Assembly: GCF_012769535.1 (NCBI RefSeq)
Contig: NZ_CP046565.1
Span: 434,001 to 498,000 of the forward strand
Reading direction: 5' to 3'
Length of the DNA: 64,000 nucleotides
Origin: Methylococcus geothermalis
GTDB lineage: Bacteria; Pseudomonadota; Gammaproteobacteria; Methylococcales; Methylococcaceae
The translations under genes and the position numbers were made by a program. Positions 640 through 9,184 of the stretch are shown one piece after another; the first letter of the stretch is position 1; every line of letters begins with the position of its first letter. The notes below the pieces were generated by a model. The model was not told the origin of the DNA. It made no database searches and was given only the letters and a program-made list of their open reading frames with translations.

Positions 640-1305
640 GTGAAGAAAACATTCTCGACCTACACTGTGTTCGCAGCCCTGCTGCTGGCCGCCCCGCTCG
701 CGGGAGCCGCTGAATATCCGCCCGACTTCAAGCCGTCGGTGATCTATCAGGATCCCAGCCTGATCGGCAAGCACGACGCGGCTCCCGCAGCCGCCGCGCC
801 GGCGGCCAAGCCCCAGGCGGCACCGGCCGCACCGGCCGCCCCCGCCAGCAAGGCGGCGCCAGCCCCCGAAACCGCACCCAGCACCGCGAAACCCGCCGCC
901 CAGGACACCGGCTCGGATTATTACCTGTTCGGCGGCGTGGTCGTGGCCCTGATCGGCTTCGTGGTCTGGAGCAGCCGCCGTCCGGCGCCCGCCCGCCCGG
1001 CCGCCGCCGCACCGGCCGCCGCAGCACCAGCCGGCGCCACGGGCGTCGCCCAATACCTGCAGGCCCAGGGCCTCTCGGCCGGGGCCGCCGAAACCGGTGT
1101 CGCCAAATACCTCAAGGCGCTGCCGGAGCCCGTCCGGGGCGCCGAAACCGGCGTGGCCAAGTACCTCAAGAGCCTGCCGCTGCCCGAAGTGGCCGCCGCG
1201 GTCGAAACCGGTGTCGCCAAGTACATCAAGAACCTGCCCAAGCCCACCATCGTGGCAACGGGCGAAACCGGCGTCACCAAATACCTGAAAAGCCTCAACG
1301 GCTGA
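640..1305 (+). CDS. Membrane-anchored TGVAKYL-repeat protein (copy 1), function unknown
   Basis: I do not recognise this 221-residue protein from any characterised family. The GTG start at 640 is preferred over an ATG at 625 because GGGGGA lies just upstream and the product then opens with a good signal sequence (residues 1-24, ending AGAA). A proline/alanine-rich linker follows (46-90), then one membrane span (about 93-110), then SSRR and a second linker. The C-terminus holds five copies of TGV(A/T)(K/Q)Y(L/I) at residues 134, 152, 170, 190 and 210. The arginines after the span suggest that the repeats face the cytoplasm. It sits between fba and hps, so a scaffolding or docking role for RuMP enzymes is conceivable but unproven. 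Confidence 0.85.
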   Translation: MKKTFSTYTVFAALLLAAPLAGAAEYPPDFKPSVIYQDPSLIGKHDAAPAAAAPAAKPQAAPAAPAAPASKAAPAPETAPSTAKPAAQDTGSDYYLFGGVVVALIGFVVWSSRRPAPARPAAAAPAAAAPAGATGVAQYLQAQGLSAGAAETGVAKYLKALPEPVRGAETGVAKYLKSLPLPEVAAAVETGVAKYIKNLPKPTIVATGETGVTKYLKSLNG

Positions 1306-2900: not shown

Positions 2901-3890
2901 ATGTCGAAAAACCTGCTTGACCAACTCCGCGAAGTCACCGTCGTCGTAGCCGACACCGGAGACATCGAAGCAATCGAGAAATTCAAGCCACGTGACGCGA
3001 CCACCAATCCCTCGCTGATCACCGCTGCCGCCCAGATGCCGCAATATCAGGATATCGTCGACGATACCTTGAAGGGCGCACGTCAAACTCTGGGGGCTGA
3101 TGCTTCGGCCGCCCGAGTGGCGAATCTCGCTTTCGACCGTCTGGCCGTCTCTTTCGGCTTGAAGATCCTGCAGATCATCGAAGGACGCGTGTCCACCGAG
3201 GTGGATGCCCGCCTCTCCTACGACACCGAGGGCACCATCGAGAAGGCGCGCGAGATCATCAAGCAATACGAAGCCGCCGGGGTTTCCAAAGAGCGCGTCC
3301 TGATCAAGATCGCCGCCACCTGGGAAGGTATCGAGGCCGCTGCCGTGCTGGAAAAGGAAGGCATCCACTGCAACCTGACTCTGTTGTTCGGTCTCCACCA
3401 GGCCATCGCCTGCGCCGAAAACGGCATTACCCTGATTTCACCTTTCGTCGGCCGCATTCTCGACTGGTACAAGAAGGAGACCGGACGCGAATCCTACGCC
3501 CCGCATGAAGATCCAGGCGTCCTGTCCGTGACCCAGATATATAATTATTATAAGAAGTTCGGTTACAAGACCGAAGTCATGGGCGCCAGTTTCCGCAATA
3601 TCGGCGAAATCACCGAGCTGGCCGGGAGCGACCTGTTGACCATCGCGCCTTCCCTGTTGGCCGAGCTGCAAGCGACGGAAGGTGAATTGCCGCGCAAGCT
3701 GGATCCCATCAAGGCGAAGGACTACCCGATCGAGAAAATCCACGTCAACAAATACACTTTCGACAAGATGCATGCGGAAAATCGCATGGCCAACGAGAAG
3801 CTGGAAGAAGGTATCCAAGGCTTCACCAAGGCACTCGAACAGTTGGAGAAGTTGCTGGCCGATCGCTTGGTCCATCTGGAAGCGGCATAA
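2901..3890 (+). CDS. tal: Transaldolase
   Basis: Transaldolase moves a dihydroxyacetone unit between sugar phosphates and helps regenerate ribulose 5-phosphate for formaldehyde fixation. The 329-residue product matches the TalB-type family length. It begins with the typical KNLLDQLRE, carries the DATTNPSL motif (about 32-39), and has the Schiff-base lysine at K136 in [17 protein letters not shown] lies 7-11 bases before the ATG. It is the only tal gene in the window and lies between the two repeats, so it is not part of the duplicated segment that can be seen. A strong terminator follows. Confidence 0.97.
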
Positions 3891-4046: not shown

Positions 4047-6059
4047 ATGCCTCCACGTCGAGAACTCGCAAATGCCATACGAGCCTTGAGCATGGATGCC
4101 GTGCAGAAGGCGAACTCGGGCCATCCGGGGGCGCCGATGGGGATGGCGGACATTGCCGAGGTGCTGTGGAACGACTACCTGCGCCACAATCCGGCCAATC
4201 CCCAGTGGCCCAACCGCGACCGCTTCGTGCTGTCCAACGGCCACGGCTCGATGCTGATCTACTCCCTGCTGCACCTGACCGGCTACGCTCTGCCCCTCGA
4301 GGAACTGCAGAACTTCCGCCAGCTCCACTCCAAGACCCCCGGCCATCCCGAATACGGCTACACCCCCGGCGTCGAGACCACCACCGGTCCCCTGGGGCAG
4401 GGCATCACCAATGCGGTGGGCATGGCCCTGGCCGAGCGCACCCTGGCCGCCCAGTTCAACCGCCCCGGCCACACCATCGTCGACCATTACACCTACGTGT
4501 TCCTGGGCGATGGCTGCCTGATGGAAGGCATTTCCCACGAGGCCTGCTCGCTGGCCGGCTCGTTCAAGCTGGGCAAGCTGATCGCCTTCTACGACGACAA
4601 CAACATCTCCATCGACGGCGAAGTCCGCGGCCACGGCGACACGCCGGGCTGGTTCCTGGACGATACCCCGAAGCGCTTCGAAGCCTATGGCTGGCATGTG
4701 ATCCCGGTCGTCGACGGCCACGATCCGGAGGCCGTGAAGGCCGCCATCGAGGCAGCCCGCGCGGTCACCGACAAGCCGTCTTTGATCTGCTGCCAGACCA
4801 TCATCGGCTGGGGCTCGCCCAACAAGCAGGGCAAGGAAGACTGCCACGGCGCCCCCCTCGGCACCGACGAAGTCGCCCTGGTACGCGAAACCATCGGCTG
4901 GCCGCATCCGGCCTTCGAGATTCCGGCCGACATCTACGAGGCCTGGAGCGCGCTCGAATGCGGCGCCAAGGCCGAAAGCGAATGGAACGACCGCTTCGAG
5001 AACTACCGCCGCGACTATCCCGAGCTGGCCGCCGAGTTCGAGCGCCGCATGGCGGGCGAACTGCCCAAGGACTGGGCCGAGAAAGCCGCCGCCTTCATCG
5101 CTTCCGTCAACGAGAAGGCCGAGACCATCGCCACCCGCAAAGCCTCCCAGAACGCCCTCAACGGCTTCGGGCCCTTGCTGCCGGAACTCTTGGGCGGTTC
5201 CGCCGACCTCGCCGGCTCCAACCTCACCCTGTGGTCCGGCTGCAAGAACGTCAATGCACCCGGCCACGACGGCAACTACATCAACTACGGCGTGCGCGAG
5301 TTCGGCATGTCCGCCATGATGAACGGCATCGCCCTGCATGGCGGCTTCAAGCCCTACGGCGCCACCTTCCTGATGTTCTCCGAGTACGCCCGCAATGCGC
5401 TACGCATGTCGGCGCTGATGAAGATCCCGGTGATCTATGTCTACACCCACGACTCCATCGGCCTGGGCGAGGACGGCCCCACCCACCAGCCGGTCGAGCA
5501 GACCGCCACTCTGCGCCTGATTCCCAACATGCAGGTCTGGCGCCCGTGCGACGCGGTGGAATCGGCGGTGGCCTGGAAGTGCGCCATCGAGCGCAAGGAC
5601 GGCCCCTCCGCCCTGATCTTCTCGCGCCAGAACCTGCCGCACATGCCCCGGACGCCGGAACAGATCGCCGCCATCACTCACGGCGGCTACGTCCTGGTCG
5701 ACTGCGCCGGCACCCCCGACGCCATCCTCCTGGCCACCGGCTCGGAAGTCGAGCTGGCGGTGAAGGCGGCCGAAGCCCTGACCGCCAAGGGCAAGCAGGT
5801 CCGCGTGGTGTCCATGGCCTCCACCAACGTGTTCGACGCCCAGGATCAGGCCTACCGCGACAGCGTGCTGCCGCCCGCCGTGACCCGCCGCATCGCCATC
5901 GAGGCCGGTGTCAGCGATGGCTGGTGGAAATACGTCGGCAGCCATGGCAAAGTCATCGGCCTGGACCGCTTCGGCGAATCCGCGCCGGCCGCCCTGCTGT
6001 TCAAGACTTTCGGCTTCACCGTCGACAACGTGGTCGGCCAGGTCGAGGCCTTGTTCTAA
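4047..6059 (+). CDS. tkt: Transketolase
   Basis: Transketolase is the thiamine-diphosphate enzyme that moves two-carbon units between ketose and aldose phosphates in the rearrangement phase of the RuMP and pentose-phosphate cycles. The 670-residue product has the full bacterial length. It carries the N-terminal [11 protein letters not shown] motif (H26), the cofactor-binding GDGCLMEG segment, and [17 protein letters not shown] in the second domain. AAGAGGAT precedes the ATG. The spacer from the tal terminator (3937-4046) probably holds its own promoter. fba starts 23 bases after the stop. Confidence 0.98.
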
Positions 6060-6082
6060 ACGCCATCTCGAGAGGGCATCCC

Positions 6083-7147
6083 ATGGCATTGATCAGCCTG
6101 CGTCAACTGTTGGACCACGCCGCCGAGCACGGCTATGGCCTGCCGGCGTTCAACGTCAACAACATGGAGCAGATCAAGGCCATCATGGAAGCCGCCTCGG
6201 CCGTGGACGCCCCGGTGATCCTGCAGGGCTCGGCCGGCGCGAGGGCTTATGCCGGCGAGCCGTTCCTGCGCCACCTGGTGCTGGCCGCCATCGACATGTA
6301 TCCGCACATCCCGGTGTGCATGCACCAGGATCACGGCGCCTCCCCGGCGGTGTGCATCCGTTCCATCCAGTCCGGCTTCAGTTCGGTGATGATGGATGGC
6401 TCCTTGCTGGAGGACATGAAAACACCGGCCAGCTATGCGTACAATGTTGAGACCACCCGCAAGGTGGTCGACATGGCGCATGCCTGCGGCGTGTCGGTGG
6501 AAGGCGAACTCGGCTGCCTGGGCTCGCTGGAGACCGGCCGGGCAGGGGAGGAGGACGGCCACGGCGCGGCAGGCGAGCTGGAGCACTCGATGCTGCTGAC
6601 CGATCCGGACGAGGCGGCGGATTTCGTCCGCCAGACCCAGGTCGACGCCCTGGCGATCGCCATCGGCACCAGCCACGGCGCCTACAAGTTCACCCGGAAA
6701 CCCACCGGTCAGGTGCTGCGGATCGACCGGGTCAAGGCGATCCATCAGCGGATTCCCACTATCCATCTGGTGATGCACGGCTCGTCTTCGGTGCCGGAGG
6801 ACTGGGCGCAGATGATCAACGACTACGGCGGCGCGATCGGCCAGACCTACGGCGTGCCGGTCGAGGAAATCGTCGAGGGCATCCGCCATGGGGTCCGCAA
6901 GGTCAACATCGATACCGATCTGCGCATCGCGTCCTATGGCGCCATGCGCAAGTTCATGGTCGAGGACAGGAAGAACTTCGACCCGCGCAAGCTCTACAAG
7001 GCCGCGCAAACCGCCATGACCGCGATCTGCCGGGCCCGTTACGAGGCCTTCGGCGCCGCCGGCCAGGCATCCAAGCTCAAGCCCATGCGCCTGGAGGACA
7101 TGAGCTTGGCGTATGCCCGGGGCGAACTGGACCCGATCGTCCGCTAG
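6083..7147 (+). CDS. fba: Fructose-bisphosphate aldolase, class II (copy 2, complete)
   Basis: This 354-residue aldolase is of the long Calvin-cycle (CbbA-like) class IIA type. It works in the cleavage and rearrangement phases of formaldehyde assimilation, on fructose 1,6-bisphosphate and probably sedoheptulose 1,7-bisphosphate. The zinc site motif HQDHG lies at residues 81-85, and [11 protein letters not shown] follows. The ATG at 6083 has GAGAGGG upstream. Bases 6558-7147 are the repeat of the partial gene at the left edge of the window. Confidence 0.97.
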
Positions 7148-7196: not shown

Positions 7197-7853
7197 GTGA
7201 AGAAAACATTCTCGACCTACACTGTGTTCGCAGCCCTGCTGCTGGCCGCCCCGCTCGCGGGAGCCGCTGAATATCCGCCCGACTTCAAGCCGTCGGTGAT
7301 CTATCAGGATCCCAGCCTGATCGGCAAGCACGACGCGGCTCCCGCAGCCGCCGCGCCGGCGGCCAAGCCCCAGGCGGCACCGGCCGCCCCCGCCAGCAAG
7401 GCGGCGCCAGCCCCCGAAACCGCACCCAGCACCGCGAAACCCGCCGCCCAGGACACCGGCTCGGATTATTACCTGTTCGGCGGCGTGGTCGTGGCCCTGA
7501 TCGGCTTCGTGGTCTGGAGCAGCCGCCGTCCGGCGCCCGCCCGCCCGGCCGCCGCCGCACCGGCCGCCGCCGCACCAGCCGGCGCCACGGGCGTCGCCCA
7601 ATACCTGCAGGCCCAGGGCCTCTCGGCCGGGGCCGCCGAAACCGGTGTCGCCAAATACCTCAAGGCGCTGCCGGAGCCCGTCCGGGGCGCCGAAACCGGC
7701 GTGGCCAAGTACCTCAAGAGCCTGCCGCTGCCCGAAGTGGCCGCCGCGGTCGAAACCGGTGTCGCCAAGTACATCAAGAACCTGCCCAAGCCCACCATCG
7801 TGGCAACGGGCGAAACCGGCGTCACCAAATACCTGAAAAGCCTCAACGGCTGA
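7197..7853 (+). CDS. Membrane-anchored TGVAKYL-repeat protein (copy 2), function unknown
   Basis: This 218-residue product equals copy 1 except for a three-residue deletion (one A-P-A unit) in the first proline/alanine linker. The signal sequence, the single membrane span and all five TGV(A/T)(K/Q)Y(L/I) repeats are unchanged. The GTG start has the same GGGGGA ribosome-binding site. Both copies keep an open frame, which argues that the protein is made and useful. No function can be assigned from sequence alone. Confidence 0.85.
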   Translation: MKKTFSTYTVFAALLLAAPLAGAAEYPPDFKPSVIYQDPSLIGKHDAAPAAAAPAAKPQAAPAAPASKAAPAPETAPSTAKPAAQDTGSDYYLFGGVVVALIGFVVWSSRRPAPARPAAAAPAAAAPAGATGVAQYLQAQGLSAGAAETGVAKYLKALPEPVRGAETGVAKYLKSLPLPEVAAAVETGVAKYIKNLPKPTIVATGETGVTKYLKSLNG

Positions 7854-7990: not shown

Positions 7991-8638
7991 ATGGCAAGAC
8001 CATTGATTCAGCTCGCACTGGATACGCTGGACATCCCGCAGACCTTGAAGCTCGCAAGCCTTACCGCGCCTTATATCGACATCTTCGAGATCGGTACCCC
8101 GAGCATCAAGCACAACGGCATCGCCTTGGTCAAAGAGTTCAAGAAGCGCTTCCCCAACAAGCTGCTGCTGGTCGACCTCAAGACCATGGACGCCGGTGAG
8201 TACGAAGCCGAGCCGTTCTTCGCCGCCGGCGCCGACATCACCACCGTGCTCGGCGTCGCCGGCCTGGCCACCATCAAGGGCGTGATCAATGCCGCCAACA
8301 AGCACAACGCCGAAGTCCAGGTCGACCTGATCAACGTCCCCGACAAGGCCGCCTGCGCCCGTGAGTCCGCCCGCGCCGGCGCCCACATCGTCGGCATCCA
8401 CACCGGCCTCGACGCCCAGGCCGCAGGCCAGACGCCGTTCGCCGACCTCCAGGCCATCGCCAAGCTGGGCCTGCCGGTCCGCATCTCCGTCGCCGGCGGC
8501 ATCAAGGCTTCCACCGCCCAGCAGGTCGTCAAGACCGGCGCCAACATCATCGTCGTCGGCGCCGCCATCTATGGCGCCGCCTCCCCCGCCGATGCCGCGC
8601 GCGAGATCTACGAACAGGTCATCGCCGCTTCCGTCTGA
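7991..8638 (+). CDS. hps: 3-hexulose-6-phosphate synthase (copy 2)
   Basis: This gene encodes the same 215-residue protein as the gene at 1443, with the DLKTMDAGE active-site motif at 62-70 and the same GGAGGA ribosome-binding site. Two identical genes raise the dosage of the formaldehyde-fixing enzyme, whose substrate is toxic and made in large amounts during methane oxidation. phi follows after 12 bases. Confidence 0.97.
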   Translation: MARPLIQLALDTLDIPQTLKLASLTAPYIDIFEIGTPSIKHNGIALVKEFKKRFPNKLLLVDLKTMDAGEYEAEPFFAAGADITTVLGVAGLATIKGVINAANKHNAEVQVDLINVPDKAACARESARAGAHIVGIHTGLDAQAAGQTPFADLQAIAKLGLPVRISVAGGIKASTAQQVVKTGANIIVVGAAIYGAASPADAAREIYEQVIAASV

Positions 8639-8650
8639 CGGGACTTGCGC

Positions 8651-9184
8651 ATGCATCAGAAACTGATCATAGACAAAATCTCCAGCATCCTCGCTGCCAC
8701 CGATGCCGGCTATGATGCAAAACTGACTGCCATGCTCGACCAGGCCTCCCGCATCTTCGTCGCGGGGGCCGGCCGGTCGGGACTGGTCGCCAAGTTCTTC
8801 GCGATGCGCCTCATGCATGGCGGCTATGACGTCTTCGTCGTCGGCGAAATCGTCACCCCCAGCATCCGCAAGGGCGACTTGCTGATCGTGATCTCTGGCT
8901 CCGGCGAAACCGAAACCATGCTCGCCTTCACCAAGAAAGCCAAGGAGCAGGGCGCATCCATCGCCCTCATCTCCACCCGCGACAGCTCCTCCCTCGGCGA
9001 CCTCGCCGACACCCTCTTCCGCATCGGCTCCCCCGAGCTCTTCGGAAAAGTCGTCGGCATGCCCATGGGCACCGTCTTCGAGCTCTCAACCCTCCTCTTC
9101 CTCGAAGCCACCATCTCTCACATCATCCATGAGAAAGGCATCCCCGAAGAAGAAATGAGAACTCGTCACGCTAACCTGGAATAA
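8651..9184 (+). CDS. phi: 6-phospho-3-hexuloisomerase (copy 2)
   Basis: This 177-residue SIS-domain protein is identical to the product at 2103. It converts hexulose 6-phosphate to fructose 6-phosphate. The spacer after it differs from that of copy 1 and leads to phosphoribulokinase rather than tal. Confidence 0.95.
   Translation: MHQKLIIDKISSILAATDAGYDAKLTAMLDQASRIFVAGAGRSGLVAKFFAMRLMHGGYDVFVVGEIVTPSIRKGDLLIVISGSGETETMLAFTKKAKEQGASIALISTRDSSSLGDLADTLFRIGSPELFGKVVGMPMGTVFELSTLLFLEATISHIIHEKGIPEEEMRTRHANLE

Follow-up and report, generated by a model that had tools for sequence, protein, structure and literature searches.

EPYC1 of the algal pyrenoid is a flexible chain whose evenly spaced short helical motifs gather the carbon-fixing enzyme, and its binding has been shown. 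Membrane proteins of the pyrenoid were reportedly found by Meyer et al. in 2020 to carry the Rubisco-binding motif, and CsoS2 of the alpha-carboxysomes is a bacterial multivalent repeat protein whose gene lies beside those of its client enzymes. How methanotrophs and methylotrophs stop toxic, diffusible formaldehyde from leaking between its periplasmic production and its cytosolic fixation is an open question, and growth in synthetic methylotrophy is limited by formaldehyde capture. In bacterial microcompartments, the encapsulation peptides are short docking peptides on cargo enzymes that bind the shell (PMC9249432). We analyzed a 64,000-nucleotide stretch of the Methylococcus geothermalis genome (the window) and found in it two copies of a repeat protein that, judged from its sequence, is a member of an undescribed family. 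The family is found in methane- and methanol-eating bacteria, which form a global methane sink; its genes almost always adjoin that of the formaldehyde-capturing enzyme, and it probably holds this enzyme at the membrane. A docking protein with a clear motif would make the question of formaldehyde leakage experimentally tractable and would provide a natural part for synthetic methylotrophy.

Three architectures were distinguished in the family. The A proteins consist of a signal peptide, the periplasmic sequence YPAADFxPxVIYQDxDYI present once or twice, a linker, a membrane span, basic residues, and 2–5 (mostly 3–5) TGVxKYL repeats. The B proteins are secreted and carry the periplasmic motif only, and the C proteins are cytosolic, have no signal peptide, and contain 2–17 repeats, often with a period of 20. 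The motif consensus calculated from 328 segments of 56 proteins was T/S, G (84%), V (100%), A/S/E, K/R (67 and 29%, respectively), Y (98%), and L/V/I/M. These conserved short motifs are evenly spaced on flexible linkers, and AlphaFold2 gave helices at the motifs and low confidence in the linkers. Several C proteins possess an N-terminal hydrophobic or amphipathic segment, such as MSEKGFFASICGFFKGLFSS in a second bacterial family (f10); the C protein of L050 (56 aa) has no such segment. The hydrophobic moments of the f10 segments were 0.39–0.54, and because the shuffle p values of the eight sequences ranged from 0.001 up to 0.124, the amphipathic segment is a lead and not proof.

The C form is the most similar to EPYC1, since it too carries short helical motifs at even distances along a flexible chain, but the motif is a different one, the enzyme would be Hps (3-hexulose-6-phosphate synthase) instead of Rubisco, the organisms belong to another domain of life, and binding, shown for EPYC1, is predicted here. 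The A form is similar to the pyrenoid membrane proteins in having a span and a tail that repeats the motif of the soluble linker; however, its sequence is unrelated, and it is a bacterial type I protein that has a periplasmic motif of its own. CsoS2 shares with the family the multivalent repeats in a bacterial protein encoded beside client enzyme genes, whereas its motif differs and no shell genes were noticed on reading the neighborhoods of the family. Encapsulation peptides are short docking peptides too, but the repeats described here lie on a separate membrane protein. By analogy, the best reading is that the repeat protein works like EPYC1, CsoS2, and the membrane proteins with the Rubisco-binding motif, sharing no sequence with a known family. 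No credible relative was found in Pfam or NCBIfam at their curated cut-offs or among any matches in PHROGs, and profile A2 found 0 sequence relatives in the PDB. We found no paper on the family or the TGVAKYL motif, and recognized none describing a scaffold of the ribulose monophosphate (RuMP) pathway, in literature that includes few subscription journals. Weak Pfam matches were taken as compositional. The only Pfam score above its cut-off, that of U1snRNP70_N on the C protein of L058 (28.9 against 23), fell on an Ala/Glu-rich stretch (0 separate stretches) and was likewise judged compositional. For a short C protein, the top-scoring Pfam family was ATP_synth_reg (PF14960), with 20.6 bits on one repeat of L166 (E 0.0003), which is under the 25-bit cut-off and probably due to chance.

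All of the window features given here are on the plus strand. Copy 1 of the repeat protein (A form, 221 aa, GTG start) is encoded at 640–1305 and copy 2 (218 aa) at 7197–7853; the two are 100% identical except for a 9-nt gap in the Pro/Ala linker. Both lie in a 5,126-bp direct repeat (99.8% identity, 1 mismatch, 1 gap), each unit of which contains fba, the repeat-protein gene, hps, and phi, and is followed by tal and tkt in the first case and by prk in the second. The hps genes are at 1443–2090 and 7991–8638 (both by TIGR03128, copy 1 scoring over the cut-off), and copy 1 encodes the proposed partner. The phi genes (6-phospho-3-hexuloisomerase) are at 2103–2636, called from sequence and operon position and named from family knowledge, and at 8651–9184, called from the direct repeat. 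The genes tal (transaldolase, 2901–3890), tkt (transketolase, 4047–6059), and fba copy 2 (354 aa, 6083–7147) were named from family knowledge. In copy 1, the signal peptide VKKTFSTYTVFAALLLAAPLAGA (640–708), in which A23 is invariant among 19 aligned A proteins, is followed by the periplasmic motif EYPPDFKPSVIYQDPSLIGK (712–771) and by the span YYLFGGVVVALIGFVVWSS (919–975), after which comes RR. The signal peptide and the span were called from sequence and simple hydropathy with no dedicated predictor. Motif scanning and spacing placed the five repeats of copy 1 at 1039–1059 (TGVAQYL), 1093–1113 (TGVAKYL), 1147–1167 (TGVAKYL), 1207–1227 (TGVAKYI), and 1267–1287 (TGVTKYL). The first-pass annotation had described two intact copies with a signal peptide, one span, and five TGV(A/T)(K/Q)Y(L/I) motifs spaced 18, 18, 20, and 20 residues apart, lying between fba and hps; our analysis confirmed the whole of this description, including the spacing and the gene position, for both copies.

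The genome consists of one contig of 3,371,031 bases. A degenerate nucleotide pattern encoding TGVx(K/Q)Y(L/I) gave 10 sites in this 3.37-Mb sequence, all 10 of them within the two repeat-protein genes, and the reversed control pattern gave 0 sites. When the 109-residue tail was shuffled 100,000 times, at least one motif appeared in only 2 shuffles. Pairs of repeats carry synonymous changes at 1–3 of the 7 motif codons, which indicates that the motif peptide is conserved and does not merely reflect recent copying of DNA.

Hydropathy gave a signal peptide, one span, and positive charge after the span, as in type I membrane proteins, for all 19 aligned A proteins, with 2–5 Lys or Arg residues within 15 residues after the span. 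The C proteins share the repeats of the A proteins yet have no signal peptide, and the B proteins, which carry the periplasmic motif, are secreted. The A form therefore resembles B joined to C across the membrane, an independent reason to put its repeats on the cytoplasmic side. The repeats of A are thus predicted to face the cytoplasm, with short helices at the motifs, in agreement with the cytoplasmic tail proposed in the first-pass annotation.

The periplasmic motif YPAADFxPxV was matched in 42 of 61 relatives (profile A9) and stands alone in the B proteins. Small secreted B proteins with 2–3 copies of YPAxxFxPxV were observed beside the gene of formate-tetrahydrofolate ligase (L237 4928–5236, L241 1109–1429, and L101 7966–8340; the ligase was called by PF01268 in L237 and by sequence in L241 and L101). 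Others are encoded at the end of an ABC transporter operon whose binding protein is of the NMT1 type (L224 and L228, called by PF09084, and L230 and L239, called by resemblance of the neighbors). In five genomes of family f5, A-like proteins were found that have, in place of the repeat tail, an acidic stretch with a conserved basic NRQRAxKTKRxRRR-like end (L090 7850–8470, L232 4531–5154, L233 4723–5367, L234 4754–5272, and L235 4385–4942), mostly adjoining a mutS-like gene. The B proteins found elsewhere and the f5 proteins without repeats indicate two modules, the periplasmic part and the repeats, that can be separated.

We searched 101 genomes of relatives with the model TIGR03128 for Hps and with BLAST for the repeat protein. 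Hps was present in 74 genomes, and a repeat-protein match was found in 59, all 59 of which have Hps; none of the 27 relatives without Hps had a match. The match was within 7 kb of hps in 49 of the 59 genomes. These 59 are search matches that were not all read by eye, and on reading, G008 and G055 proved to have an A-like protein without repeats. In G075, which the search had missed, reading found A and C proteins (L085), so that Hps genomes without the family number 14 of 74 (15 without a BLAST match minus G075). None of the 60 genomes of family f206 matched the repeat protein in a search without a positive control. Among 369 class-wide genomes, profile A1 matched 6, and Hps, searched separately, was over the cut-off in the same 6; these represent only three or so lineages and are not 6 independent events. 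Three of the 6 belong to the second family, f10, which lies outside the order. The three f10 repeat genes found by similarity alone are all between hps and tal, and each of the 20 loci extracted around hps (from 20 of 57 genomes) contained a C protein with 2–6 repeats, 18 of them found at once and two, with just two repeats, on closer look. The f10 loci read contain the C form only, that is, repeats without the periplasmic part. A scan of genome contigs for C proteins gave 61 loci, mostly of Methylococcales, the rest being bins labeled Gammaproteobacteria, proteobacterium, or bacterium. The first-pass annotation had missed forms B and C, as well as the periplasmic motif and the occurrence of the family outside the order.

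Within 9 kb of 156 distinct repeat ORFs, we found Hps for 129, Tal for 124, Phi for 121, and Tkt for 116. This set includes the 20 loci fetched around hps and therefore overstates the link, for which the 49 of 59 genomes given above is the fairer measure. Of the 27 repeat ORFs without Hps nearby, 22 start within about 2.2 kb of the end of the fetched DNA, and 11 of these 22 adjoin tkt or tal. At least five repeat proteins with more than 5 kb of DNA on each side are away from the RuMP genes of the hps cluster (L051, L053, L062, L084, and L161); that of L051 is 2 kb from the gene of ribose-5-phosphate isomerase. In L161, a four-repeat C-type protein with a Cys-containing C-terminal region (5866–6735) was observed between flagellar and dsbC/rseP-like genes, away from hps. 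The cluster layouts were A-hps-phi, hps-phi-tkt-A-tal, hps-tkt-B-C, and hps-C-tal-hps-phi, and of the RuMP genes only hps occurs in every one of them. A tandem arrangement in G044 (L061), hps-phi-tkt-C, hps-phi-tkt-C, hps-phi-tkt-A-tal, places A and C in the same slot after tkt. The family is genetically linked to the gene of its proposed client enzyme, as a scaffold would be, and these counts do not describe homologues scattered without a link to RuMP genes, the outcome that the first-pass annotation had named as speaking against its proposal.

In both species of the genus g8, the methanol dehydrogenase cluster mxaJ-G-I-R...D is directly followed by the gene of an A paralogue that carries TGVARYL twice (L062 8338–9201 and L261 10499–11350). 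The cluster was called from MoxJ (TIGR03870), MoxG (TIGR03872), and the beta subunit (PF02315), followed by a MoxR-type ATPase and further genes. This position in two species of one genus is consistent with the idea of the first-pass annotation that the enzymes are gathered close to the site of formaldehyde formation. If the second family, f10, which has only the C form in the loci read, lacks intracytoplasmic membranes, the restriction of that idea to these membranes was too narrow.

We compared Hps and Phi as partners by means of trees. The presence or absence of the repeats takes 2 changes on the Hps tree (33 Hps, IQ-TREE) and 4 on the Phi tree (29 Phi). The repeat-free members of the window's family (L079, L080, and L081/L094) have an Hps from outside the repeat-linked group, and the Phi of L079, L080, and L094 falls within the window's family. 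With FastTree, all repeat-linked Hps formed one group among 83 Hps (support 1.0) and also among 81, whereas IQ-TREE with 33 Hps nested the repeat-free L087 and L095 inside the repeat-linked group (97/85). An exclusive repeat-linked Hps clade is not claimed because the two programs disagree, and AU tests rejected neither an Hps nor a Phi clade. Residue 108 of Hps (numbering of the window hps at 1443–2090) is Glu in all 66 Hps encoded in repeat loci; among the 12 from repeat-free genomes it is Glu in 1 and Gln, Lys, or Trp in the others. This residue was found post hoc by scanning all columns, the rows are related, and it is therefore a lead only.

AlphaFold2 predictions gave helices and no confident docking, both for a natural read-through fusion of Hps and C (motif pLDDT about 36–50, 26 sequences, single chain) and for the tail with Hps and Phi (motif pLDDT 25–39, 9 sequences, single chain). 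These results are not counted as support, and with shallow alignments and monomeric targets they do not exclude docking. The fusion alignments A4 (Hps-only and C-only rows), A5 (Tal), and A6 (Hps-only and Phi-only rows) were dropped; the C-only rows of A4 had aligned to Hps and, judging by identities, so had the Phi-only rows of A6. Older work reportedly described particulate Hps in Methylococcus, and our literature search found nothing confirming it.

A multivalent docking scaffold at the membrane, for Hps or other RuMP enzymes, best accounts for the anchor with its many motif copies, for a conservation confined to the motif, and for the hps linkage seen in two families. The membrane-held docking tail proposed in the first-pass annotation gains partial support. 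We give somewhat better than even credence to the reading that the repeat protein is a scaffold of the RuMP pathway that is held in the membrane and has several docking sites, and we infer that it binds most likely Hps. The A protein would be cut by signal peptidase and would cross the cytoplasmic (or intracytoplasmic) membrane once, exposing to the cytoplasm a tail in which flexible linkers join short helical TGVxKYL motifs. A RuMP enzyme, most likely Hps, would dock with low affinity on each motif, and in this way several enzyme molecules would be collected on the cytoplasmic side of the membrane. The C proteins, with up to 17 motifs, could cross-link or cluster more enzyme, and the periplasmic motif may tie A to a periplasmic partner, possibly the methanol-oxidizing machinery, whose product is formaldehyde. 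A possible but doubtful extension is a coupling across the membrane, in which A docks through its periplasmic motif at or near methanol dehydrogenase, and the repeats of A and the C proteins gather Hps beneath the same membrane patch to form a membraneless formaldehyde-fixing body. Such a body would catch toxic formaldehyde as it crosses and would correspond, in one-carbon metabolism, to the pyrenoid.

The linkage to hps applies equally to repeats that bind a RuMP enzyme as a regulator, chaperone, or stabilizer, for example by sequestering or inhibiting Hps at low formaldehyde, and not as a spatial scaffold. The variation in repeat number from 2 to 17 would be tolerable for an on/off binder, but one binding site would suffice for it, and a chain that has a membrane anchor or a hydrophobic head and carries many motif copies is more in keeping with clustering; we consider this role unlikely. 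It is rather improbable that the repeats bind each other, lipid, or another membrane complex (methanol dehydrogenase or methane monooxygenase), with no RuMP binding and with the operon serving co-expression, since the linkage to hps is tight in two families and the shared neighbors are non-membrane enzymes, although the paralogue beside the methanol dehydrogenase cluster, the few members away from RuMP genes, and the lack of AlphaFold2 docking on Hps or Phi are in its favor.

Operon co-inheritance alone could cause the co-occurrence of the family with Hps. Other points against the scaffold reading are the lack of confident AlphaFold2 docking, the repeat proteins away from RuMP genes, the Hps genomes in which the family is missing, and the AU tests and tree programs that do not settle on an exclusive Hps group. 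A passenger role, in which a protein of general envelope function happened to be inherited together with hps, would agree with the occurrence of B proteins and repeat-free A-like proteins elsewhere. However, the repeat and not the periplasmic part tracks hps, as seen from f5 (periplasmic part without repeats) and f10 (repeats without periplasmic part), and gene position and order vary between lineages while the hps linkage holds, which makes a passenger very unlikely. The conserved Lys/Arg beside Tyr (96 and 98%, respectively, in the 328 segments) and the C1-metabolism setting of most loci might suggest a formaldehyde buffer or sensor in which these residues react reversibly with formaldehyde near its source. 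We regard this as very improbable because the invariant Val and the conserved Gly are not needed for such chemistry, Arg and Lys interchange, and the capacity of a few residues would be tiny against the metabolic flux.

In Methylococcus capsulatus Bath, a 5,267-bp identical direct repeat with the genes of the same enzymes around the transaldolase gene was reported in 2004 (PMC517821). A CRISPRi study of the same strain states that guides against the RuMP operons MCA3040-45 and MCA3046-50 were depleted on methane and that phosphoribulokinase is MCA3051 (PMC13108547). By operon counting, the repeat genes of this strain would be MCA3042 and MCA3048. The M. geothermalis genome has a third Hps (G000:C1:863546-864157) in a 486-aa frame, probably a fused Hps-Phi, and it is without a repeat protein because all motif sites of the genome are in the two window genes. 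A promoter-like site, TTGACA-17-TACAGT (1328–1356), was observed ahead of hps, between the repeat gene and hps and inside the direct repeat, as a consensus match only (1 found, 0.4 expected).
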